DNA of 64,000 nucleotides from an uncultured Lachnospiraceae bacterium (GTDB lineage Bacteria; Bacillota; Clostridia; Lachnospirales; Lachnospiraceae): the NCBI GenBank assembly GCA_949471785.1, contig CASWRE010000012.1, positions 1 to 64,000 on the forward strand. Direction: 5' to 3'. How positions within the stretch are numbered: position 1 is the stretch's first letter; the number at the start of each line of letters is the position of its first letter. The notes under the pieces were generated by a model. That model had not been told where the DNA came from and searched no databases. It was given only the letters and a program-made list of their open reading frames with translations. Shown piece by piece: positions 33,075-54,077 of this stretch. The translations under genes and the position numbers were made by a program.

Positions 33075-33857
33075 ATGAATACGCAAAATCAAATTTTACA
33101 GGTGGATGGCCTGACGAAAACCTACGGAAAAGGCGGTAATAGAACAGAGGCGTTGAAAGGAATTACCTTTACCGTACTGGAAGGCGAATTTTTAGGCATT
33201 ATGGGCGCCAGCGGATCGGGAAAAACCACGCTGCTCAACTGCATCGCTACCATGCTGAGGCCCACGTCCGGCAAGATCGTTCTGCAGGGCAGGGATATTT
33301 CCGGCTTTCGCGGCAGTGCTCTTGCCGATTACCGCGGTAAGGAGATCGGTTATCTGTTTCAGGATTTCGAGCTGCTGGACAATCTGACGGCGAGAGAAAA
33401 TATTACCCTGCCCCTGGCTCTGCACGGCGTAACGGCAGAAAAAGCGGAAGCGGATATGGAAGCGCTTGCTGCCATGCTGGATATCGCCGGGACGCTGGAT
33501 AAATTCCCGTCACAGCTGTCCGGCGGGCAAAAACAGCGGGTGGCGGCGGCAAGAGCGCTCATCGGAAATCCGAGTATCGTGTTGGCCGATGAGCCGACGG
33601 GCGCTCTTGACAGCAAAAATTCCAAAATTCTGATGGATAAGCTGTCTGCGATCAACCGCGGGCAGGGCAAAACGATTATGATGGTCACCCATGACGCAGG
33701 CGCCGCAAGTTACTGTTCCCGTATTCTCTTTATCCAGGACGGAGGTATTTTCCATGAACTGCGCCGAAATATGCAGACGGAAACAACGGCGATGTTTTAT
33801 GAGCGCATCGTAGCCGTGATGGCACAGTTGGGAGGAGGCAGCGCAAATGTTCTTTAA
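33075..33857 (+). CDS. bceA: Bce-type ABC transporter ATPase
   Basis: This is the ATP-binding subunit of a peptide-antibiotic sensing and detoxification transporter. It has Walker A GASGSGKTT near residue 47, the signature LSGGQKQR, and Walker B IVLADEPTGALD with D-loop and H-loop MMVTHD. At 260 residues it is of normal length. The track start at 32916 is too early: the ATG at 33075 has AAGGAGG 8 bases upstream and gives the typical start QVDGLTKTYG. It overlaps the permease gene by 11 bases. The four-gene order ATPase, permease, response regulator, kinase marks a self-contained module. The symbol is by family analogy; the antibiotic sensed is unknown. Confidence 0.92.
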   Translation: MNTQNQILQVDGLTKTYGKGGNRTEALKGITFTVLEGEFLGIMGASGSGKTTLLNCIATMLRPTSGKIVLQGRDISGFRGSALADYRGKEIGYLFQDFELLDNLTARENITLPLALHGVTAEKAEADMEALAAMLDIAGTLDKFPSQLSGGQKQRVAAARALIGNPSIVLADEPTGALDSKNSKILMDKLSAINRGQGKTIMMVTHDAGAASYCSRILFIQDGGIFHELRRNMQTETTAMFYERIVAVMAQLGGGSANVL

Positions 33858-35877
33858 ACAGGTACAACGTAATGCCGCCAAAAACCGAAAGGGAAACGGG
33901 CTGTTTTTCAGCTCCCTGATCATTGCCATTGTGGCCTTTTATACGCTGCTCTCCCTCGGAGATCAGGACGTTATGCGTTATCTTGCCACAGTCGAGAGCG
34001 ACGCAGTGGCGAAGCTGATGGCGCTGCTCCCCGTGGTGTACGCCGTTTCCCTGTTCTTTGTATTTTTTCTTGTTTATTTCGCCTGCAAATACCAGACGGA
34101 CAGCCGCAGGCGCGAGCTTGGTATGTATCTGATGCTTGGCATGAAGCGTAGTCGTATGTTTTTGATGCTATTTTGTGAAACGTTGTGGAGCAGCGTCATA
34201 TCCCTTCTTATCGGGCTTCCGGCGGCGTTGTTTTTGACAGAAGGGATCAGCCTTGCCACGGCGAAAGTGGTGGGACTGGGCATTATCGGCCATCATTTTT
34301 CTCTGTCGCTCCAGGCCATTTTCTGGACGGTCTGCGGATATGTCTTTGTGCAGCTTTTATCTATGCTGGTTATCTGCGTCGGCCTTAGCCGAATGGCCCC
34401 TGCAGATTTGCTCTGCTCAGGAGACGTCAAAAAGCAAAAGCTTTTGTCTGGTGGGAAAAGTACGGCGCTGTTTGCCCTCGGCGCCTGCTGTCTGCTTGCC
34501 GCCTATTATCTCGGTATATTTCGTATGCGCGGGCTGGATCTTATGACGCTGCTTGTCCTTGTCATTTTTGGAATTCTCGGTACCTTTCTTTTGTATCGCG
34601 GACTGGGCGGAATGCTCGGCGGGCGTATTCGCAGAAGGAACGCAAAAGCTGTGGGACTTTCTGTTTTTACCGCAAGGCAGGTGCAGGAGAACGTTCTGTC
34701 GCAGCATAAATCGCTGGCGGTGTCCTCATTGCTTCTGCTGATGGCGCTTTCCTGCATTTCCTACGGCATCTCCATGGTGACAGGACGCTCCACAAGCAGC
34801 CGCTCGGTCGATTTTTCGCTATTCGGTGAGGAGGAACAAATTGACGCTGCTCTGGAAAAAGACGGCGTCCGTGAAATGGTGAAGGAGACCTATCCTTTAT
34901 ATCTTTCTTCTGTAAAGGACGGATATTTCCGGGATGAAGAAAAAGCATTTGATACCGGGGAGATGGAAAAAGCCCTTGGCGCCATTGAGGGTTCAGAAAA
35001 TATCATCGAAAATCTTCATATTGAATATGTCATAGCAGAAAGCTCCTATAACCGCATCCTGAAAAATGTGGGCAAGGAGGAGCTGAAGCTTTCGGCGCAT
35101 GAGGCGGCAATCTATACTTCGATAGGCAATGACGGAGATTTCGGATCGATTCTGTCAAAAGCGACCGGATCAAAAATTTCCATCGGTATTGACGGTATTT
35201 CATACGATATCCGCCCCACGCTTTATATGGATAACGTTGTGGCGGATCGGGCAATTACTATTTATATGGCGCTGATCGTACCGGATGAGTTATTCCTGCA
35301 GCTTGCCGGAGAACCGAAAGCATACTGCCGTAACGTTAGCCTGTCCGATACGGTTGTAGAGGATATGGGACTGATGCAGGCGGTACAGAAAACAGACGCG
35401 CTGCTTGCGGATACAGGGATTGAGTACGACAGCTATCTCGGCGGAATCGGAAGAAATCTGTTCTACACGGTGGCGGCAAGCTATCTTTCGATCTATCTGG
35501 GCGTGCTGTTCTGGCTGATTGCCAACACCGTCATCGGACTGAAATATCTGATCGGCCAGCGTCGGACGAAACGCCGCTATGAAACGCTGACAATGCTTGG
35601 AGCCGACGCCCAGTCCATGTGCCATTCGGTGAAAAAGCAGATCGGAACATACTTTTTCCTGGTGCTTTGCACTGCGCTTGTCAGCAGCGCCGCGGCGATA
35701 TTCACCATGTTTACAAGTTTTACCAAACTGCCCGCGGGCGTTTCCGTGCAGACGGTGGCGCTGCTTTCGGCGGTTGCTCTGGTGATTTTTGCAGGCATTG
35801 AAATGCTGTATATCGGTATTGTCAAGCGGACGGCCGTCCGCGAGATATGCCGGATTGAAATAACCGATCGGAGGTGA
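33847..35877 (+). CDS. bceB: Bce-type ABC transporter permease with large extracellular domain
   Basis: A 676-residue membrane protein with the FtsX/MacB-like permease arrangement. There are two helices near residues 20-85 (LFFSSLIIAIVAFYTLL, VVYAVSLFFVFFLVYF), a group of helices to residue ~310, a soluble extracellular domain of about 200 residues (~315-540) that recognises the peptide antibiotic in this family, and a final group of three helices. It is expected to form the sensory complex with the kinase encoded two genes on. The conserved RRRELGMYLMLGMKRSRM cytoplasmic turn is present. It overlaps the ATPase gene and lies 4 bases from the regulator gene. Confidence 0.9.
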   Translation: MFFKQVQRNAAKNRKGNGLFFSSLIIAIVAFYTLLSLGDQDVMRYLATVESDAVAKLMALLPVVYAVSLFFVFFLVYFACKYQTDSRRRELGMYLMLGMKRSRMFLMLFCETLWSSVISLLIGLPAALFLTEGISLATAKVVGLGIIGHHFSLSLQAIFWTVCGYVFVQLLSMLVICVGLSRMAPADLLCSGDVKKQKLLSGGKSTALFALGACCLLAAYYLGIFRMRGLDLMTLLVLVIFGILGTFLLYRGLGGMLGGRIRRRNAKAVGLSVFTARQVQENVLSQHKSLAVSSLLLLMALSCISYGISMVTGRSTSSRSVDFSLFGEEEQIDAALEKDGVREMVKETYPLYLSSVKDGYFRDEEKAFDTGEMEKALGAIEGSENIIENLHIEYVIAESSYNRILKNVGKEELKLSAHEAAIYTSIGNDGDFGSILSKATGSKISIGIDGISYDIRPTLYMDNVVADRAITIYMALIVPDELFLQLAGEPKAYCRNVSLSDTVVEDMGLMQAVQKTDALLADTGIEYDSYLGGIGRNLFYTVAASYLSIYLGVLFWLIANTVIGLKYLIGQRRTKRRYETLTMLGADAQSMCHSVKKQIGTYFFLVLCTALVSSAAAIFTMFTSFTKLPAGVSVQTVALLSAVALVIFAGIEMLYIGIVKRTAVREICRIEITDRR

Positions 35878-35881
35878 TCCT

Positions 35882-36559
35882 GTGCCCGGGATTGTGATTG
35901 TGGAAGATGATATTTATCTGCGTGAGGAGCTGATCCATACACTGAAAAAAGCCGGCTATGACGCGGCGGCGCTCACGACGTTTGACCGCGCAGAGGAACA
36001 GATTGTCTCACTGCGGCCGGAGCTTGTCCTGCTCGACGTGAATCTGCCAGGAAAATCCGGCTATGAGTTGTGCAGACGTCTGAAAATGAAATCTGCCTTC
36101 CCAATTCTGATCCTGACGGCCCGGGATACCCTTTCGGACGAACTGACGGCGCTGGGGCTTGGCGCGGATGATTTTCTCACGAAGCCCTGTCATCCGGATC
36201 GCCTGGCCGCAAGGGCAGGGCGGCTTCTGCAGACTTACAACAGGCAGTTTCGCGCCCTGCTCCGGGTCGGCGCCCTGTCGCTGGATACCGACACTTACAA
36301 GCTGGTTTCGGAGGACGGATTTTTGATCCTTGCCGAGACAGAGGGAAAAATCATGCGGCTTTTGATGGAACAGTATCCGCATATTGTGGACAAAGGCGAG
36401 CTGTTTGCCGCCGTCTGGGGAACGGAGGAATTTGTGGACGAAAATATTCTGCAGGTCAATATGAGCCGCCTGCGCAAGAGCCTGGCGGAGATCGGTCTGA
36501 AGGAGATCGTCCGCAATATCCGGGGAAAGGGTTATGTGTTGGAGGTGGACGGCCTGTGA
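35882..36559 (+). CDS. bceR: OmpR-family response regulator of the Bce module
   Basis: The receiver domain (residues 1-120) has the acidic pair VEDD, the phospho-acceptor aspartate in LVLLDVNLPGKSGYE, and the conserved lysine in LTKPCHPDRL. The C-terminal winged helix (residues ~130-225) has MRLLMEQYPHIVDKGEL, VNMSRLRKSL and IRGKGYVLE. At 225 residues it matches BceR relatives. It would bind the inverted repeat at 33001 and activate the operon on kinase signalling. Start: the GTG at 35882 (AGGTGATCCT upstream) gives PGIVIVEDD. It overlaps the kinase gene by 4 bases. Confidence 0.92.
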   Translation: MPGIVIVEDDIYLREELIHTLKKAGYDAAALTTFDRAEEQIVSLRPELVLLDVNLPGKSGYELCRRLKMKSAFPILILTARDTLSDELTALGLGADDFLTKPCHPDRLAARAGRLLQTYNRQFRALLRVGALSLDTDTYKLVSEDGFLILAETEGKIMRLLMEQYPHIVDKGELFAAVWGTEEFVDENILQVNMSRLRKSLAEIGLKEIVRNIRGKGYVLEVDGL

Positions 36560-37551
36560 GAAAAGTGATCAGACGCTCCCGAAACTGGCTTATCCTGTTG
36601 CTGGCCACAGACGTCGTATTTCTGTTTGCGGCGTGGATCATGCGCCGCGAGGCGCTTCCGTATATGCTGCTGTTTCTCCTTCTGTTTACAGTGTTTGCTT
36701 TTGCGGCCGGGGTTTTTGCGGAGATTTGCCGCCGGCGAAAGGAAGACGCAGCTCTGCTGGACTTTCTCAGTAATCCCGGCGAACAGACAGAGGAAGCACT
36801 TCTGAATCTTTTTGAACATAGCGAGGCTTCCCGTATGCTTTACACGCAGTTCCTTGCCGACCTGTCGCTGATCAATGAGAAGACTGTGGAGCTGGCGGAG
36901 TATCGGGAATATATTGAGGCTTGGGTGCACGAAGCGAAAACGCCCTTATCGCTTTTCGCCTTAGTGCTGGGAAATCATAGAGATGAGATGTCGTCTTATG
37001 TGTACACAAGACTGAATTATACTTGGCGTCAGCTGAATGAGGATGTGGAGCGCATTCTGTACTATGCGCGCCTGCAGGCGGAGCATTCGGATATCAAATT
37101 TACCCGTTTTCGCCTGGATGAGTGTGTGACCGAAGTCCTTGCGGAGTATGGTACATTTACCGAGGAGAGGAAAATTTCCGTAACGGCCGAATTGCCGCCG
37201 ACAGAAGCGATATCCGACCGCAAGGTCGTCGCTTTTATGCTGTCGCAGATTATCGGCAACGCTGTGAAATACGCGGACGGAATTCACGGGGAAGCGTCTG
37301 TTTCCCTGCGGCAGGAAGGGGATAAAATCTATCTCGATGTCTGCAATAACGGCGACGGCGTGCCGCCGGAGGATCTGCCGTTTATTTTCGACAAGGGCTT
37401 TACAGGTAATCATCCGAATCGGCAAAAAGCCACGGGGATGGGGCTGTATCTTGTTCGGAAATATGCCGAGCTGCTGTGCGTGGAGGTACGGACGATTTCC
37501 GATATTCCGTATGACAGCGGATTCGGAATAGAAATGGTTTTTGTTTTATAA
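36556..37551 (+). CDS. bceS: intramembrane-sensing histidine kinase of the Bce module
   Basis: Two N-terminal helices with almost no extracellular loop (WLILLLATDVVFLFAAWIM and LPYMLLFLLLFTVFAFAAG) define the intramembrane-sensing type, which needs its partner transporter to detect antibiotics. The phospho-accepting histidine is in EAWVHEAKTPLSL, the N box in QIIGNAVKYADG, and the G boxes include GMGLYLVRKYAELL. At 331 residues it has the expected size. It overlaps the regulator gene by 4 bases and ends just before a terminator shared with the converging M56 gene. Confidence 0.92.
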   Translation: MRKVIRRSRNWLILLLATDVVFLFAAWIMRREALPYMLLFLLLFTVFAFAAGVFAEICRRRKEDAALLDFLSNPGEQTEEALLNLFEHSEASRMLYTQFLADLSLINEKTVELAEYREYIEAWVHEAKTPLSLFALVLGNHRDEMSSYVYTRLNYTWRQLNEDVERILYYARLQAEHSDIKFTRFRLDECVTEVLAEYGTFTEERKISVTAELPPTEAISDRKVVAFMLSQIIGNAVKYADGIHGEASVSLRQEGDKIYLDVCNNGDGVPPEDLPFIFDKGFTGNHPNRQKATGMGLYLVRKYAELLCVEVRTISDIPYDSGFGIEMVFVL

Positions 37552-37617: not shown

Positions 37618-38946
37618 TTACTGGCCGCCATGATGCCGGAAACGATGGCGTTCCGAATGGTGATTTTCTGAAAGGTCGCCGTATGCTGAAGGGTCTGTGA
37701 TTTCCGAAGCGTTTTCATTCCCTGCAGCCATGGAGGAATCCGCCACATGGGAATAGGATTCATCCTGTAGGAGGCCGTCTGTATCGGAGGCATGGGAATA
37801 GGAGCCGTCTGCAGCGGGCGCATCAGGATAGGAGCCGTCTGTATCGGGTACACCGGAATAGGAGCCGTCCGTATCAGAATAGGCGTCATCTCCTACGTCT
37901 TCGGTTGTATCCGGAAGGTCGCCGTTTTCGGCCGTATCCGGTGAATTGTTGTCTTCGGCTGTATTCGGCAGGTTGCCGCCTTCGACCGTGTCCGGTGAGC
38001 TGTCGTCTTCGGTGGTATTTGTATCGCTCAGCCGGGGATCGGCGGCGATGGGGTTGGCGGCGCAGACGAAAACGACGGCAAGGCAGAGAAGGGCCGAGAG
38101 CAGAGCGGCAACGGGGCGGGGCGGTTTCCAGTGCAGAATGTGCAGGACTCTTTTCTTGATATCGGTTTCTCCGAAGGCCAGAGGGCCGGGGGAGGGGAAA
38201 CGGCCGCGCAGGGCAAAGGAGAGCAGCGCTTCGCTGTAATCACCGGAGGCATGTTCTTCCCGGCCCAGCACATGCTCGTCGCAGCTCATCTCCATATCCT
38301 TGCAGCACAGATGGAAAGCGAGCCAGCATAACGGGTTGAACCAGTGCAGGGACAACAGCAGGTAAGCGGCCATTTTCAGGATATGGTCGCAGCGTTTTAC
38401 ATGATAATTTTCATGGAGCAGGACGTAGTGCAGAGTCTGACTGTCCAGATAGTAGGGGATATAGATTTTCGGACGGACTATTCCCAGGATAAAAGGAGAG
38501 TATACATATTCCGACTGGAACACGTTATCTTCCAGGCGAACGGCCGTGCGTAGTCTGCAGGTCAGACGGATATAAGAGATCAGGCCATAAGCCGCAAGGG
38601 CGGCCGCGCCGGCAAGCCACAGAACAGCCCCCAGGATAAGCCACATCTGTGGAGACGCGGGATTCCGGAGCGCGGCGGGAAGGCCGGACGCGGGGGCAAT
38701 ATCCGCCAGAGCTGCCGACGGATCGGCGGCCAGGGACGGGAATATTCTCGGGAGTCTCAGACGGAACAGGCTGATGGTCGATGAAAAGGACACGGGGCAG
38801 CAGAGCCGGAACGCTACGACGCCCCATAAAAAATAGGAATACTTTTTTGGAGCTTTACGCAGCAGAAGCCGTACGATGAGTACGGCTAAAATGCTGTAAC
38901 CGGCGGTCAGGCTCATAGAGAGCATTGACAGGAACAGATTGCTCAT
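37618..38946 (-). CDS. M56-family (BlaR1/MecR1-like) membrane metalloprotease with acidic repeat tail
   Basis: Membrane helices (MLSMSLTAGYSILAVLIVRLLL and others) surround a zinc-protease motif HENYH (His-Glu-x-x-His) near residue 180. This is the form of sensor that cleaves a partner BlaI repressor on signal. After a last helix (LLSALLCLAVVFVCAANPI, ~residues 290-308) comes an acidic extracellular tail. It is made of nine-residue repeats (such as TAENGDLPD) and ten-residue repeats (PDTDGSY-type), ending in a His-rich HHSERHRFRHHGG. There is no penicillin-binding domain, so the stimulus is not evidently a beta-lactam. It is the last gene of a minus-strand operon with the BlaI-like gene and the Cys/His-repeat gene. 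CAGGAGG lies 10 bases upstream. Confidence 0.86.
   Translation of the reverse strand: MSNLFLSMLSMSLTAGYSILAVLIVRLLLRKAPKKYSYFLWGVVAFRLCCPVSFSSTISLFRLRLPRIFPSLAADPSAALADIAPASGLPAALRNPASPQMWLILGAVLWLAGAAALAAYGLISYIRLTCRLRTAVRLEDNVFQSEYVYSPFILGIVRPKIYIPYYLDSQTLHYVLLHENYHVKRCDHILKMAAYLLLSLHWFNPLCWLAFHLCCKDMEMSCDEHVLGREEHASGDYSEALLSFALRGRFPSPGPLAFGETDIKKRVLHILHWKPPRPVAALLSALLCLAVVFVCAANPIAADPRLSDTNTTEDDSSPDTVEGGNLPNTAEDNNSPDTAENGDLPDTTEDVGDDAYSDTDGSYSGVPDTDGSYPDAPAADGSYSHASDTDGLLQDESYSHVADSSMAAGNENASEITDPSAYGDLSENHHSERHRFRHHGGQ
37771..37890. repeat. four 30-bp tandem repeats inside the M56 gene
   Basis: Units begin at 37771, 37801, 37831 and 37861, built on GGAGCCGTCTGTATCGG. They encode ten-residue units containing DTDGSY. 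Copy number could vary between strains. Confidence 0.75.
37907..38014. repeat. four 27-bp tandem repeats inside the M56 gene
   Basis: Units begin at 37907, 37934, 37961 and 37988, built on GTATCCGG and a CTTCGG end. They encode nine-residue acidic units. They lie beside the 30-bp array in the same extracellular tail. Confidence 0.75.
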
Positions 38947-39058
38947 GGGATGATAGCCTCCTGAAAATTTACGAAAATAATGGCGGCGGGCAGTCCGGGT
39001 GGCCGCGGAAACAATGACAAAACAGGTATTGCCGGGGATGTGCTCCGACCGTCGGACG

Positions 39059-39640
39059 TCAGTAGGATGTTACGGTAGAGTGTCCGTAATAGTATTTGCC
39101 GTTATGCTTGTGCTTCTTTGTTTTTTTGCAGTTGTTCACGGTACACTGGCTGTAGACCTTGCCGCTTCCGGCGTGGCCATAATAGTATATGCCGCTGTGT
39201 TTATGCTTTTTAGTCTTTTTGCAGCCGCTTACGGTGCATTGGCTGTAGGTGATCCGGCAGCTGGAATGACCGTAATAGGTTTTGCCGTGATGCCTGTGTC
39301 TTTTAGTCTTTTCGCATCCGGCCACGGTGCATTGGCGGTAGGCGCTGCCTGAGCCGCAGTGTCCGTAATAGGTTTTGCCGTGATGTCTGTGCAGGCCGGT
39401 TTTCTTACATTTTTCTACGGTACACTGACCGTAGGTGATGCATTTTCCGGTGTGGCCGTAATACTGACGGCCGCTGTGGGTATGCGTTCCTGTCCTCCGG
39501 CAGCTGGACATATTGCATGGATGCTGCGCCGCATGAGATGAGCCATGGTGGCCGCCGCCATGATGCCCGTGGGCGGTAACAGTCACAGGCGCCTGCAAAA
39601 GAAGAAGGATGAGGGCGGTAAAAAGAAGAATTTTTTTCAT
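39059..39640 (-). CDS. secreted Cys/His-repeat protein, candidate metal binder
   Basis: I do not recognise a named family. A signal peptide (KKILLFTALILLLLQAPVTVTA) is followed by a His/Gly stretch (HGHHGGGHHGSSHA) and five copies of a roughly 31-residue unit of the form C-x4-C-(K/R)-(K/R)-T-x2-H-x-H-x3-YYGH, for example CTVSGCKKTKKHKHSG. Regularly spaced Cys and His pairs suggest zinc or copper binding, or disulfide-linked repeats. I take the ATG at 39640 (AGGAGG 10 bases upstream), not 39667. It lies between a BlaI-like repressor gene and an M56 sensor gene in one operon, so it is probably the regulated product or a ligand-presenting partner of the sensor, whose own tail is also His-rich. 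Confidence 0.75.
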   Translation of the reverse strand: MKKILLFTALILLLLQAPVTVTAHGHHGGGHHGSSHAAQHPCNMSSCRRTGTHTHSGRQYYGHTGKCITYGQCTVEKCKKTGLHRHHGKTYYGHCGSGSAYRQCTVAGCEKTKRHRHHGKTYYGHSSCRITYSQCTVSGCKKTKKHKHSGIYYYGHAGSGKVYSQCTVNNCKKTKKHKHNGKYYYGHSTVTSY

Positions 39641-39647
39641 GATACGG

Positions 39648-40007
39648 TTACCTCCTGTGCTGGTCAATCAGTTTTTTAAGTTCCAGGGCTTCCTGCCCGG
39701 AGATGGCTTTCCCGTCAAAAAAGGAAGTGAGAAACTGGGGCAGGGAACCTCCGAAGGTGTGATCCACAAAATGTCTGCTGGCAAAAGCCTGTACCTGCTC
39801 CTTGGGGATGCACGAGGAAACGACGGTGTCCTCATTCCGTGCCAGGCCTTTTGTGCAAAGCTTTTTCAGCGTTGTGTAGGTGGTGGATTTTTTCCATCCC
39901 AGAATTTCGGAACAGTGATCCACCAGACTGCGGGACGTGAGCGGTTCGTAATCCCAGATGACACACATAAAACGGTAATCACTTTCACATAATTTTAGTA
40001 ATTCCAT
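39648..40007 (-). CDS. BlaI/MecI/CopY-type repressor
   Basis: A 119-residue winged-helix repressor: LCESDYRFMCVIWDYEPLTSRSLVDHC, then LGWKKSTTYTTLKKLCTKGLA, the recognition helix region of BlaI-like proteins, and a C-terminal dimerisation helix (ISGQEALELKKLIDQHRR). The canonical protease cleavage site is not evident by eye. I choose the ATG at 40007 with AAAGGAGG 6 bases upstream over the track start at 40040, which lies in the operator. An inverted repeat (GGTCGG-N6-CCGACC) and a TTGACA promoter lie directly upstream, so it probably represses its own operon of Cys/His-repeat protein and M56 sensor. Confidence 0.88.
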   Translation of the reverse strand: MELLKLCESDYRFMCVIWDYEPLTSRSLVDHCSEILGWKKSTTYTTLKKLCTKGLARNEDTVVSSCIPKEQVQAFASRHFVDHTFGGSLPQFLTSFFDGKAISGQEALELKKLIDQHRR

Positions 40008-40020
40008 AGAGTCCTCCTTT

Positions 40021-40038
40021 GGTCGGCGATTACCGACC
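40021..40038. promoter_or_regulatory. candidate operator of the first BlaI-like repressor
   Basis: GGTCGG and CCGACC form a perfect inverted repeat with a six-base spacer, 13 bases before the repressor start codon. A second partial site (CCGACCGG, about 40059) lies inside the promoter spacer. Confidence 0.6.
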
Positions 40039-40046
40039 ACGAGTAT

Positions 40047-40075
40047 AGTCTATAACAACCGACCGGCTTTGTCAA
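40047..40075 (-). promoter_or_regulatory. promoter of the first BlaI/M56 operon
   Basis: On the minus strand a perfect TTGACA (40070-40075) and TAGACT (40047-40052) are 17 bases apart. The operator-like repeats flank and overlap it, fitting repression. Confidence 0.6.
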
Positions 40076-40124: not shown

Positions 40125-40289
40125 AAAATCAGAAGTTTGTGATCGGAAAATAAATCCGGCGTCAATCAAAAATCATTTTCTATATAAACTGAGACAATTT
40201 CCTTGTAAAACAGCGAAGGATCTGGTAAGATAAAAACGAACGTGACTACAAAATTAGACAATACGGTGATAAGGGAAAGGATGAAGCAT

Positions 40290-40673
40290 ATGTTTGGGAA
40301 AAGGATTCTCAGCGAGTGCGAAGAAGTAATTATGAAAGCGGTGTGGGACGCGGGGGAAGATATATCCATCCCCGATCTGATCACGGTACTTCGGGAACAG
40401 TACGGGAAAGACTACCAGAGGACGACGGTGGTAACATTTTTGTCCCGGTTGGCCGGTAAGGACTATGTGGAAACATTTCGCAGAGGCCGACTGTCCTATG
40501 CCCGCCCGTTAAAAAGTGAAGAAGAATATAAGTCTTATCTTGCCGGAAGAGAGTTGAATCGGTGGTTCAGGGACGACGCTTCGGATTATGTGTCTTCTCT
40601 TTTGAAAGAAAGAGGGATATCTAAGGAGGAAAAGGAGAAAATCAGGAGGCTGCTGGATGAACTGGACGATTAA
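40290..40673 (+). CDS. second BlaI/MecI-type repressor
   Basis: A winged-helix repressor of the BlaI family: LSECEEVIMKAVWDAGEDISIPDLI, YQRTTVVTFLSRLAGKDYV and a C-terminal helical dimerisation part, NRWFRDDASDYVSSLLKERGISKEE. The track frame starts at a GTG at 40242; I take the ATG at 40290 because it gives the usual family start and has GGGAAAGG about 9 bases before it. It overlaps the following M56 gene by 17 bases, the standard repressor-sensor pairing. It is divergent from the first BlaI-type operon, with 282 bases between the two start codons. No clean operator was found there for this repressor. Confidence 0.88.
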   Translation: MFGKRILSECEEVIMKAVWDAGEDISIPDLITVLREQYGKDYQRTTVVTFLSRLAGKDYVETFRRGRLSYARPLKSEEEYKSYLAGRELNRWFRDDASDYVSSLLKERGISKEEKEKIRRLLDELDD

Positions 40674-42033
40674 TCTGATGGGCTGCATGGCGCTTACCGC
40701 ATTGACCGGCGGCATTTTTCTGGCGGCCTGGCTGTGTCTGAAATGGGCTGCGGAAAAGCGGGGGTATATTGAATTTCTGTACAGGGCTTTATGGCCGGCG
40801 ACGCTTTTTTTCCTGGTCCCGGCCGCCTTCCTCTGCTGTCTGTTCCGGGCCCGGACGGGGGAATATGCGGGGACGGGGGCCTGGCCCGGCTGCTTTTCCC
40901 CGTCTATAAAGATGATGGGAGAAAGGGCCGCGGGGGTCTGGCTCTGCGGAGCGGCTCTGCTGCTGCTTTTGTATGGCGTGGATTTTTTGCGGTACCGCTA
41001 TCAGATCAGGAATAAGATCCGGTGCGGTGGGATGAAATACGCCGTCTTCTGCCGGACGCTGGAAGAACTGGGTCTGTCGGAGGGAAAAGTAGGATTGTAT
41101 GAATCCTATCACGTGAGGACGCCGATGGTCACGGGTCTGTGGCGGCCGAAGGTGCTCCTGCCGGCGGGGGAATATGGAGAAAAGGAGCTGCAGGTCATTT
41201 TTCTCCATGAATTGAGCCATTACAGACAAAAAGACTTGTGGCTGAAAAGCATCCTGCGGATGGCCGTGATTTGGCAGTGGTTTAATCCTGCCGTATGGGT
41301 ATTGAGGATGCTGGTATGGCGTTGGAGCGAGTATGCCTGTGACAGCTGTGTATGCAGGAAAACGGGAAAAGCAGGAGAATATTTTGGTGTGATTCTGTCC
41401 CTTACAGAGCCTGCCAGGGGATGGACAGATGGCGGCAGGTCGCTGCTGCTTGCCCATAAGCATGAATTAACCCGGAGAGTGGAAAAAATGAAAAAATGTT
41501 TCAAAAAGGAATTGCCGAAAATGAGGTGGGTATACGGCTTATGTACGGCCCTGCTGTTGTGCGGCACGGTATCGGTCTATGCGTCTTCGGAGGGGCTGCT
41601 TGCCGGATATGACAGATGGTATGAAGAGACGGATGTGGCTCTTGAGGAGGAAGGGCAGCCCTTTGAGGAGATGACGGAATATGAGGAAACCGGGGACAAC
41701 GGTCTGGTCGAGGAAATGGATGAATCGGCGGCGTTGCAGCCCGGGGCGAGATCCGGGAATATGGAGTGGACGGTAAAGGCCGACAAACGGAAGACCAGCG
41801 CGGGCTTTTCGGCGAAATCGGGACAGACCATCGAAATAACGGTGATACTTTTGCCAACGGATCTATCTACTAATGTCGGTATTATTGAGCCGGACGGAAC
41901 GCGAAGATATGTGACTGGCAAAAGAGCGGTTTCCCATGATTTCAAATTGGACCAAACTGGTACATATAAAATCTTTATTGAAAATAAGAATTCAAAATCG
42001 ATTAAAGCAACTGTTTCATATGCCGTAAAATAG
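40657..42033 (+). CDS. M56-family membrane metalloprotease sensor with extracellular beta domain
   Basis: Helices in the N-terminal ~110 residues (GCMALTALTGGIFLAAWLCL, LWPATLFFLVPAAFLCCLF, AALLLLLYGVDFL) lead to the zinc-protease motif HELSHYRQKDLW near residue 185, and a last helix lies near residue 295 (VYGLCTALLLCGTVSVYAS). Beyond it are an acidic stretch (EEEGQPFEEMTEYEE) and a C-terminal beta-rich unit (MEWTVKADKRKTSAGF, TGTYKIFIENKN) that may be the sensor. It has no penicillin-binding motifs. It overlaps the BlaI-type gene and is followed by a secreted small protein and an ABC transporter, which it may control. Confidence 0.88.
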   Translation: MNWTINLMGCMALTALTGGIFLAAWLCLKWAAEKRGYIEFLYRALWPATLFFLVPAAFLCCLFRARTGEYAGTGAWPGCFSPSIKMMGERAAGVWLCGAALLLLLYGVDFLRYRYQIRNKIRCGGMKYAVFCRTLEELGLSEGKVGLYESYHVRTPMVTGLWRPKVLLPAGEYGEKELQVIFLHELSHYRQKDLWLKSILRMAVIWQWFNPAVWVLRMLVWRWSEYACDSCVCRKTGKAGEYFGVILSLTEPARGWTDGGRSLLLAHKHELTRRVEKMKKCFKKELPKMRWVYGLCTALLLCGTVSVYASSEGLLAGYDRWYEETDVALEEEGQPFEEMTEYEETGDNGLVEEMDESAALQPGARSGNMEWTVKADKRKTSAGFSAKSGQTIEITVILLPTDLSTNVGIIEPDGTRRYVTGKRAVSHDFKLDQTGTYKIFIENKNSKSIKATVSYAVK

Positions 42034-42280: not shown

Positions 42281-42700
42281 ATGAAAAGAATCATGAGTAA
42301 CATCGCATTGGTTTTGACAATGGCCGTTTTGTTTTCCGTCAATGTGTCGGCTGCCATCAAAGATCCAATAACTAAGACGATTGATCTGCCGAAAAATCAA
42401 AAATGGGTGTCCTGCTCGGCAACGAGAACTGGAGACTATGATTTTTGCTATGCCAAGTGTCAGTCTGTTTATTCAACGACATCATCGGATAATTTTACGC
42501 GGATTCAGGCGCGGGTAGTGAATTCATCAGGAACTCGTATATCAGTAGATAGTAAATACATATTGAGTGAGAAGGACGCAGGAAGCGCGGTAATGAACAT
42601 AAAAAGAGGTTATTTAAGCGCAAAAAGTATTAAATTCCAATTTCGTGGAAACAAACCGGAGTATGCGGCCCGGGCAAAAGTATTCTACAATGTAATGTAA
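42281..42700 (+). CDS. small secreted protein of unknown function
   Basis: A 139-residue protein with a clear signal peptide (MKRIMSNIALVLTMAVLFSVNVSAA, cut near residue 25). The mature ~114 residues are rich in beta strands and Ser/Thr (LPKNQKWVSCSATRTGDYDFCYAKCQSVY) and have three cysteines in the first half. I recognise no family. AAGGGAG lies 11 bases before the ATG. It lies between an M56 sensor and an ABC-2 transporter cluster in the same direction, with a hairpin on either side. It could be the exported cargo or effector of that system; this is inference. Confidence 0.6.
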   Translation: MKRIMSNIALVLTMAVLFSVNVSAAIKDPITKTIDLPKNQKWVSCSATRTGDYDFCYAKCQSVYSTTSSDNFTRIQARVVNSSGTRISVDSKYILSEKDAGSAVMNIKRGYLSAKSIKFQFRGNKPEYAARAKVFYNVM

Positions 42701-51903: not shown

Positions 51904-53691
51904 TTATAAAAGGTCATTCAGAATCTCAACCGCAATTTCCGAAGCCCTGCGGCCGGTGGAATGTTCAGAATTTTGCAGATTGACGGCGAAACAGTAAAGA
52001 TCTTCGTGATTCTCGACAAATCCTATAAACCACCCATTGCGATTCTGCCCGTTAACAAAACCGGTGCCGGTTTTGCCGTAGAGTTTTCCCGCGGGAATGT
52101 CGGAAATAAACAGGGCATTTTTTACGGCCAGAATATTCTGCTCATCAAACTCCCATTTGTTTTCCAGCAGATTCGCCAGCAGCATGACCTGTTCAACCGG
52201 TGAAATTTTCAGAGAGGATTCCGCCCAGTACTGCGTGGCTCCGCCGGTCAGATCACAGTTGCCGTAGGAAATCCGGCGATAATAGGCGTACAGGGCGGAG
52301 AGGCCAAGCCGTCTGTCCAGATTCTGAAAGTACCAGTTCACGGAATCCGCCATGGCGGTGGAAAGCGTCTGATCCCGGTTCCAGGAATCAAAATACTGTC
52401 TGGTTCCGTCCCATGGGATCAGGGAAGAATCGGGGGAGATCACATGCTCCTCCAGGGCAAAGAGCCCACTGTAGATCTTGAAAGTAGAATCCGGGGAAAC
52501 CCGCCGCTCGGCCCCCTCTTTATTATAAATATGATACCGATTGCGGGATACGTCATAGAGGACAAAGGACCCCTCCGCGCTGTCAAAATAGGGGGCGGCG
52601 TCCAGAAATTCCCGGTTTTCGGCGTCCAAATGAAAAGACGCGTTTTGAGACGCATGGGCCGTCAGCAGGGGCGCCAGGCCGTACACGGGCAGTACGGCAA
52701 GAAGGATTATGCCCATGCTCTTGCATTTTTGAAAAAAGGAATCGCTTTTATAGTTTGCGATGGCTGTAATCCTCTGTCGGATCGCGGCTTTTTGGTCTCC
52801 CATGGCGGACAGGGGGGAGAAGAAGCTTCCTTTTTGCATATGCCCGGTATATCTCAGGATGGTGGAGCCGTATTGCAGGCATTTTTCCCTGCCAATGACA
52901 GATATCACGGAATGATCGCAGGCGATCTCCCGGTCTTTTTGCAGCTGGCGAAAACCGTACCAGATCCAAGGATTGAACCAGTACAGGACCCCCAGCAGGC
53001 AGACGAGATCGTTCAAAAGAGCGTCCCTGTGCCGGTAGTGCTGCAGCTCGTGCAGGAAAATATAGCGCACATCTTCATCGGACAGCAGGATATCCAGATC
53101 CTGAGGGATAATCACGGTGGGCCGAATCCAGCCGTAGGAGACCGGGGTGGGGATGTGGCAGGAGGCATACAGCCGGACGTGCCACCGGATGTGCAGCGCC
53201 CGCCGGCAGGATAAAAAATGGCGGTACAGTTCAGGCTCTGTCCGGTCGGTGACGGCGTAAGCATGTTTCCGCAGGAAATAGATTTTCAGGATTGTGCGGA
53301 GGGTGTACAGGGCGGCGGCAGCAATGCCTGCAAGCCATGTGCCCCATAATACAGATGGCAAAACAGTATGGGACGAAGCTATGGCCGTCGAAAGATCCGT
53401 CAGGCCCGCAAGAGACGCCGCCGGGTGGACGGCCGTATTTCCCGCCGGGACAGGGGCGGAAAGACCGGCGCCGTGGCCGAACCATTGCCGTATCCACAGA
53501 AAGAAGTTTCCGGGGGCAAAAATTTGGCAGGGCCAGAAGGGCAGGAGCAGGGAGAAGACAAAAATGTACCATATGCGGTATTGAGCCGTTACGGTCATGT
53601 GCTTTTTAAAAAGACGCTTTCCCGCCAGGATCAGGGCGAGCAGCAGACTGATTAAACCGTTGCAGATTAAAAAATGCAGGGGAAATGTCAT
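51904..53691 (-). CDS. blaR1: BlaR1-type beta-lactam sensor-transducer
   Basis: 595 residues with the full BlaR1 plan. Four membrane segments hold the M56 zinc-protease motif HELQHYRHRDALL near residue 215. After the last helix (GIILLAVLPVYGLAPLLTA) an extracellular class-D beta-lactamase-like sensor domain begins. Its acylation motif is STFK (near residue 395), the second motif is at YGN, and the third is KTGTG (near residue 555). A beta-lactam acylates the serine and activates the protease, which leads to removal of BlaI. It overlaps blaI by 4 bases. No beta-lactamase gene lies next to it, so the regulated target is probably elsewhere or is the operon itself. Confidence 0.93.
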   Translation of the reverse strand: MTFPLHFLICNGLISLLLALILAGKRLFKKHMTVTAQYRIWYIFVFSLLLPFWPCQIFAPGNFFLWIRQWFGHGAGLSAPVPAGNTAVHPAASLAGLTDLSTAIASSHTVLPSVLWGTWLAGIAAAALYTLRTILKIYFLRKHAYAVTDRTEPELYRHFLSCRRALHIRWHVRLYASCHIPTPVSYGWIRPTVIIPQDLDILLSDEDVRYIFLHELQHYRHRDALLNDLVCLLGVLYWFNPWIWYGFRQLQKDREIACDHSVISVIGREKCLQYGSTILRYTGHMQKGSFFSPLSAMGDQKAAIRQRITAIANYKSDSFFQKCKSMGIILLAVLPVYGLAPLLTAHASQNASFHLDAENREFLDAAPYFDSAEGSFVLYDVSRNRYHIYNKEGAERRVSPDSTFKIYSGLFALEEHVISPDSSLIPWDGTRQYFDSWNRDQTLSTAMADSVNWYFQNLDRRLGLSALYAYYRRISYGNCDLTGGATQYWAESSLKISPVEQVMLLANLLENKWEFDEQNILAVKNALFISDIPAGKLYGKTGTGFVNGQNRNGWFIGFVENHEDLYCFAVNLQNSEHSTGRRASEIAVEILNDLL

Positions 53692-54077
53692 GATTCGTCG
53701 TCGCTCCTTGTCCGGGAATTTATGATTTCATGCAGATCTTTCAGGTCCTCGTCGGACAGCTCCGCGTGGGCCAGCAGGGAGGAAAGCATGGGCGCGATTT
53801 CTCCGCCGTAAAATCGGTTGAGAAATGTATGATTTTCCTGCTGCAGATAGCTTTCCCGGGAGATAAGCGGGGAATAGTGGTACATCCGTCCCTGTTTTTC
53901 GTAAGAGATCGCTCCTTTGGCCGCCAGCCTGGACAGCAGCGTGTGAATGGTTTTCTGGTTCCAGCTGTGGGAACGCCGGGCGCGTTCCGTGATTTCGTTG
54001 GTGCTGAGCGGATATTCCGCCCAGAGGATTTTCATGATTTCATATTCGGCTCGGGAAATCTGAGGGATTTTTTTCAT
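53688..54077 (-). CDS. blaI: BlaI repressor
   Basis: A 129-residue winged-helix repressor: ISRAEYEIMKILWAEYPLSTNEITERA, SWNQKTIHTLLSRLAAKGAISYEKQGRMYHY and a C-terminal helix pair FLNRFYGGEIAPMLSSLLAHAELSDEDLKDLHEII. It is the closest of the three repressors here to classical BlaI. The gene is transcribed ahead of blaR1, overlapping it by 4 bases. A perfect TACTAC-N4-GTAGTA operator lies 20 bases upstream of the start codon, just downstream of a strong promoter, so repression by promoter occlusion is expected. Confidence 0.94.
   Translation of the reverse strand: MKKIPQISRAEYEIMKILWAEYPLSTNEITERARRSHSWNQKTIHTLLSRLAAKGAISYEKQGRMYHYSPLISRESYLQQENHTFLNRFYGGEIAPMLSSLLAHAELSDEDLKDLHEIINSRTRSDDES

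Follow-up and report, generated by a model that had tools for sequence, protein, structure and literature searches.

The window, that is, the whole analysed stretch of 64,000 nucleotides, contains on its minus strand (40007-37618) three genes which encode, in this order, a BlaI-type repressor, a secreted Cys/His repeat protein, called REP here, and an M56 sensor protease. We propose that this locus is a self-contained, extracytoplasmic, metal-responsive circuit built on a BlaI/M56 chassis, in which REP would be the secreted, metal-binding output, a reading that stands about evenly balanced in our judgement. The features read from the window sequence are the following:

40047..40075, minus strand: sigma-A-like promoter, from the sequence (TTGACA at 40075-40070, TAGACT at 40052-40047)
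40064-40047, minus strand: dyad O1, GGTCGGTTGTTATAGACT, overlapping the spacer and the -10 element
40021..40038, minus strand: dyad O2, GGTCGGTAATCGCCGACC, 26 bp from O1 and kept in locus L002
39648..40007, minus strand: BlaI-type repressor, 119 aa (PF03965, 1.2e-16)
39059..39640, minus strand: REP, secreted Cys/His repeat protein, 193 aa (signal peptide, His/Gly stretch, five units)
37618..38946, minus strand: M56 sensor protease P0003, 442 aa (PF05569, 2.6e-47)
37621..38052, minus strand: outer tail predicted for the M56 protein (residues 299-442), acidic with a His-rich end

The genes are tightly spaced, with 7 bp between the repressor and REP and 112 bp between REP and the M56 gene. The repressor matches Pfam Penicillinase_R (PF03965) with 61.5 bits, the cut-off being 22.6. 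P0003 matches Pfam Peptidase_M56 (PF05569) with 161.9 bits for a cut-off of 31; its HExxH lies at residue 178, and four predicted membrane helices precede the tail. The earlier note had described a sensor devoid of a penicillin domain, with a long acidic tail ending in a His-rich segment, and this description holds: the 144 aa after the last helix contain 34 D/E against 4 K/R and end in His-rich sequence (ENHHSERHRFRHHGGQ; HHSERHRFRHHGGQ), no match to Pfam Transpeptidase was found in P0003, and its 76 bits on the blaR1_generic model, against a cut-off of 400, leave it outside BlaR1. By homology to BlaR1, the tail is predicted to lie outside the cell.

REP starts with a signal peptide followed by an AHGHHGGGHHG stretch, and carries exactly five C-x4-C-x5-HxH...GH units, which begin at residues 42, 73, 104, 135 and 166, with a spacing of 31 aa; the signal peptide, His/Gly stretch and five C-x4-C/HxH units announced for the middle gene could thus all be read. 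When mature REP was shuffled 20,000 times, two or more C-x4-C-x5-HxH units arose once. The mature protein is strongly basic (net +26, K/R minus D/E). According to the AxA rule, mature REP would start with HGH, and the same AxA form followed by HGH is common to L002, L003, L004, L005, L007, L011 and L071. We take this start to resemble amino-terminal Cu/Ni-binding motifs. In the REP family, which is defined here by a C-x4-C with an HxH five residues further on (a definition that 5/5 units of REP fit), the HxH stands exactly five residues after the C-x4-C in 69 of the 69 pairs of the readable members. Metal sites typically have Cys and His that are equally invariant at a fixed spacing. With disulfides alone there would be no need for the HxH. 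We read the repeats as probable metal sites; the C-x4-C could instead form disulfides. AlphaFold (AF2), with five sequences, gave REP a pLDDT of 38.6 and only weak hairpins, and since this model is unusable no metal site could be seen in it. Sequence searches of Pfam, NCBIfam and PDB gave no convincing match to REP, and neither REP nor RsgI/M56 proteins with a His-rich tail turned out to be described in the open-access papers searched. REP thus probably represents an undescribed family of secreted proteins, for which metal binding is predicted.

The genome has one REP copy. The earlier note had proposed a search for the same three-gene order; it was found in one other species, of the same genus (L002; L015 and L074 are the same contig), and was not seen elsewhere. 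There, the neighbours are different, REP is 85% identical and the repressor 96% identical (dN/dS 0.036). Constraint on REP is strong, with a dN/dS of 0.098 overall and 0.084 in the repeats; the M56 protein of L002 has a shorter, diverged linker (dN/dS 0.52) and likewise finishes in a His-rich segment, SHHLESHHSGHHNGE. In two further congeners (85% and 57% complete), neither REP nor the close M56 homologue is present. With a two-unit profile, REP-type genes were detected in 15/397 Lachnospiraceae genomes and in 2/399 genomes drawn from the phylum, the own genome being counted in both cases; none was found in plasmids, phages and viral contigs. Outside the genus, no BlaI or M56 gene stands beside REP at any locus examined: in other Lachnospiraceae the relatives of REP are alone, or beside a sigma-I/RsgI pair or an ECF-sigma/RsgI-type pair. 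As 28 of the 29 nearest BlaI relatives directly precede an M56 gene, REP has apparently been inserted, and the simplest history appears to be that REP entered a BlaI-M56 pair within this genus.

In L002 the block formed by the promoter and the dyads is preserved, and the sequence upstream of this block is diverged. Dyads of the same class (GGTCTATAGTTATAGACC-like) occur in the nearest BlaI-M56 pairs from other genera, where O1 lies over the -10; in the window and the relatives measured, the dyad starts are 25-29 bp apart. This supports a BlaI-type autoregulation through two putative operator dyads. Hence the idea that the locus borrows the BlaI/BlaR-type logic for another signal gains ground on two sides: P0003 lacks the transpeptidase domain of a beta-lactam sensor, and the conserved tandem dyads speak for autoregulation. 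A perfect match to O2 occurs at one site only, that of the operon, in this genome (84.5% complete), which means that the regulon is probably the operon itself. A one-mismatch match, GGCCGGGAAAAGCCGACC, was taken as a chance occurrence, and the regulon search gave no second convincing site.

About six M56 genes are present in the genome. One of them belongs to a second BlaI/M56 pair, divergent from the operon and directly beside it (40242-42033, plus strand), which has no penicillin domain and whose M56 tail is not His-rich; it is followed by a 139-aa protein with no Pfam match (42281-42700). A canonical BlaI/BlaR1 pair, in which the M56 protein has a transpeptidase domain, lies at 51904-54077 on the minus strand, and its BlaR1 (51904-53691) is likely to be a true beta-lactam sensor. 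On the other side, at 33847-37551 of the plus strand and convergent with the operon, one can notice genes for an FtsX-type permease, a response regulator and a histidine kinase, an arrangement resembling peptide-antibiotic (Bce-type) modules. No recognised metal transporter adjoins the operon.

The regulators which accompany REP in other genera carry His-rich ends too. In L061, L069, L070 and L072 the REP-type genes are divergent from SigI/RsgI, and in L066 the genes after REP encode an ECF sigma factor and an anti-sigma factor that contains an RsgI_M domain; the C-terminal regions of these regulators are all His-rich (KDHHGSGHHIE, SHHSEDSSDGQENHHHE, GHHSQEDSGGKESHHHD, CHSGHDHKNR and THGHMRRGHGKNN). 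Membrane regulators of the M56 or RsgI type that are adjacent to REP have a His-rich tail in 5/5 genera, with 4-6 His in the last 35 residues, against 0-3 in the non-adjacent controls (n=33: 18 RsgI and 15 M56). Counting one regulator per genus, 5/5 against 0/33 gives a Fisher p of 2e-6, a value to be read as descriptive because the cut-off was set post hoc and relatedness was left uncorrected. RsgI_N matches are scarce (25 of 200 genomes, one each), so that chance is an unlikely reason for their position beside REP in three genera; the SigI-type REP loci may share one origin. A further RsgI_N match, in G333, was dismissed, as the frame has no RsgI central motif. In characterised cases the outer C-terminus of RsgI is the sensor (PMC12203970), which means that the His-rich tails occupy the sensor position of unrelated chassis having the same output family. 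The presence of these His-tailed, unrelated switches beside the REP family suggests that extracellular metal sensing and binding are shared among them. Together with the 69/69 association of C-x4-C and HxH, it gives the metal idea an independent, though circumstantial, support.

The sigma-I side can also be followed in the promoters. The pattern ACCC[CT]A[CT]-N18/19-CGTA[AT]TC stands before four SigI-side REP-type genes and before a Cys-rich gene of L123, and had no other occurrence in the loci searched (1.57 million bases, both strands counted), a specificity which is partly circular since the pattern was taken from its own five sites. Sigma-I recognises CGWA at -10 (PMC10575876); judged by their sequence, the SigI-adjacent REP-type genes carry sigma-I-type promoters matching this motif. 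Upstream of REP, L003, L005 and L066 have in common a GAAAGGA(A)TACT...TTCAATCGTATT block resembling a promoter of the ECF type; genes for an ECF sigma factor and an RsgI-type anti-sigma factor adjoin REP in L066 and are missing from the Roseburia loci.

The proposed circuit would work in the following way. Bound to the two dyads at its own promoter, the BlaI-type repressor would repress repressor, REP and sensor together. The M56 sensor would expose, in place of a penicillin-binding domain, its acidic, His-ended extracellular tail, and the meeting of this tail with its ligand, for which a transition metal (for instance Zn(II), Ni(II) or Cu) is the most likely candidate, would activate the cytoplasmic M56 protease and lead to the inactivation of BlaI. 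REP would then be secreted, its C-x4-C-x5-HxH units and its predicted N-terminal HGH would bind the same metal near the cell, and metal-bound REP would buffer the metal and lower the signal as a feedback. Repression by BlaI, its M56-driven inactivation and the outer location of the tail follow from the families (PMC7593790). We infer that the ligand is a metal, which metal it would be, in which direction the circuit responds, that BlaI is proteolysed and that REP feeds back. We favour a circuit that excess metal induces and in which REP buffers this metal; a circuit induced when metal is lost, REP then acting as a scavenger, is possible by analogy with ZepA (PMC10957091). In favour of the circuit we counted the domains, the conserved dyads, the cassette in a second species, the constraint on REP, the association with His-rich tails, and the joint lack of REP and the close M56 homologue in the two incomplete congeners. 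Against it we counted at least nine REP loci outside the genus, that is, most of the relatives, which have no neighbouring His-tailed regulator. A wider proposal, which we judge a little more apt to fail than to hold, is that a His-tailed sensor and a secreted repeat protein form a transferable outer-surface module controlling extracellular metal on at least three Lachnospiraceae chassis, namely BlaI/M56, sigma-I/RsgI and ECF-sigma/RsgI-type anti-sigma.

The most serious alternative, which we nevertheless consider unlikely, is an envelope-stress circuit: the M56 protein would sense damage to the wall or membrane, or a cationic peptide, and REP would be a cationic coat of the wall or a trap for peptides, its Cys and His being structural or binding metal for folding only. 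BlaI/M56 and SigI/RsgI are indeed systems for envelope signals, the charges (net +26 for mature REP, 34 D/E and 4 K/R in the sensor tail) fit, and the adjoining genes for an FtsX permease and a two-component system resemble a peptide-antibiotic module; but neither the independent His-rich tails of unrelated regulators adjacent to REP nor the predicted His-rich N-terminus of mature REP is explained in this way. The same opposite charges, the His-rich ends of both proteins and a gene pairing that is fixed within the genus would fit another model, in which REP is less an output than a partner of the sensor outside the cell: loaded with metal or another ligand, it would bind the acidic His-ended tail and turn M56 on or off. 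We find this rather improbable, as most relatives of REP have no such sensor nearby. A slim chance is left to an accidental insertion of REP into a BlaI-M56 operon, with no functional tie to the sensor: the order is confined to one genus and REP is alone in most other genomes, yet the cassette is intact in two species in different contexts, REP is constrained, and the sensor happens to have a His-rich tail. Finally, an ordinary beta-lactam-sensing BlaI/BlaR1 system, suggested by the repressor and protease families, is highly improbable, because the operon has no penicillin-binding domain or beta-lactamase and a true BlaR1 lies at 51904-53691.

As to known systems, the metal-responsive circuit that we prefer shares with BlaI/BlaR1 and MecI/MecR1 (S. 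aureus, B. licheniformis) the repressor family, the HExxH M56 protease, a C-terminal outer part and an autoregulated promoter with two dyads. It differs from them by the lack of a penicillin-binding sensor domain and of a beta-lactamase or PBP2a gene in the operon; instead, it has a secreted Cys/His repeat protein as cargo and an acidic, His-ended tail as its outer part. By analogy within the BlaI and M56 families, the system would work like BlaI/BlaR1 with another sensor tip and another cargo. Sigma-I/RsgI (Clostridia, C. thermocellum) resembles it by a transmembrane regulator, a C-terminal outer sensor and proteolysis-based signalling, and relatives encode the REP family divergently behind a CGWA-type promoter; its chassis, however, is an anti-sigma factor and not a repressor with a protease, and the characterised RsgIs of C. 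thermocellum sense polysaccharides, not metals. The copper repressors CopY/TcrY belong to the same winged-helix repressor family and respond to metal, as is predicted here, but CopY detects intracellular copper by a Cys motif of its own and is not known to work with an M56 partner. The CopY/TcrY identity was tried for our repressor and rejected (28.8 bits on NCBIfam TIGR02698, cut-off 121.95). ZepA (PMC10957091), compared with REP by description, is likewise secreted, handles metal outside the cell and has His at a flexible mature N-terminus; it differs by its globular fold, PEP-CTERM signal and Zur control, and no Cys/His repeats are described for it.

Gut Firmicutes often carry several BlaI/M56 pairs of unknown signal. 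In this case the sequence points to a likely output and to a candidate for the sensing element, and the REP family also stands beside sigma-I/RsgI. If the proposal is true, orphan systems of the BlaI/M56 and RsgI kinds gain a class of inducers to be tested, and a so far undescribed family of secreted proteins that probably bind metal receives a name.

We must also mention some loci observed during this comparison. L123:310-2334 has a SigI/RsgI pair with a mildly His-rich RsgI tail (intermediate, with 3 His in the last 35 residues and 5 in the last 60) and a divergent secreted Cys-rich protein (ECPYGCPAECPTDCP), which is unlike REP and possibly another output of the same kind. Among the REP relatives in L061, L062, L065, L066, L069, L071 and L073, several have His/Gly-rich ends (for example GHHGRHHG and RHHGHRGHH) similar to the tails of the regulators. 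The densest array that we saw is that of the REP relative at L062:5829-6659, with 12 tightly packed C-x4-C-x5-HxH units.
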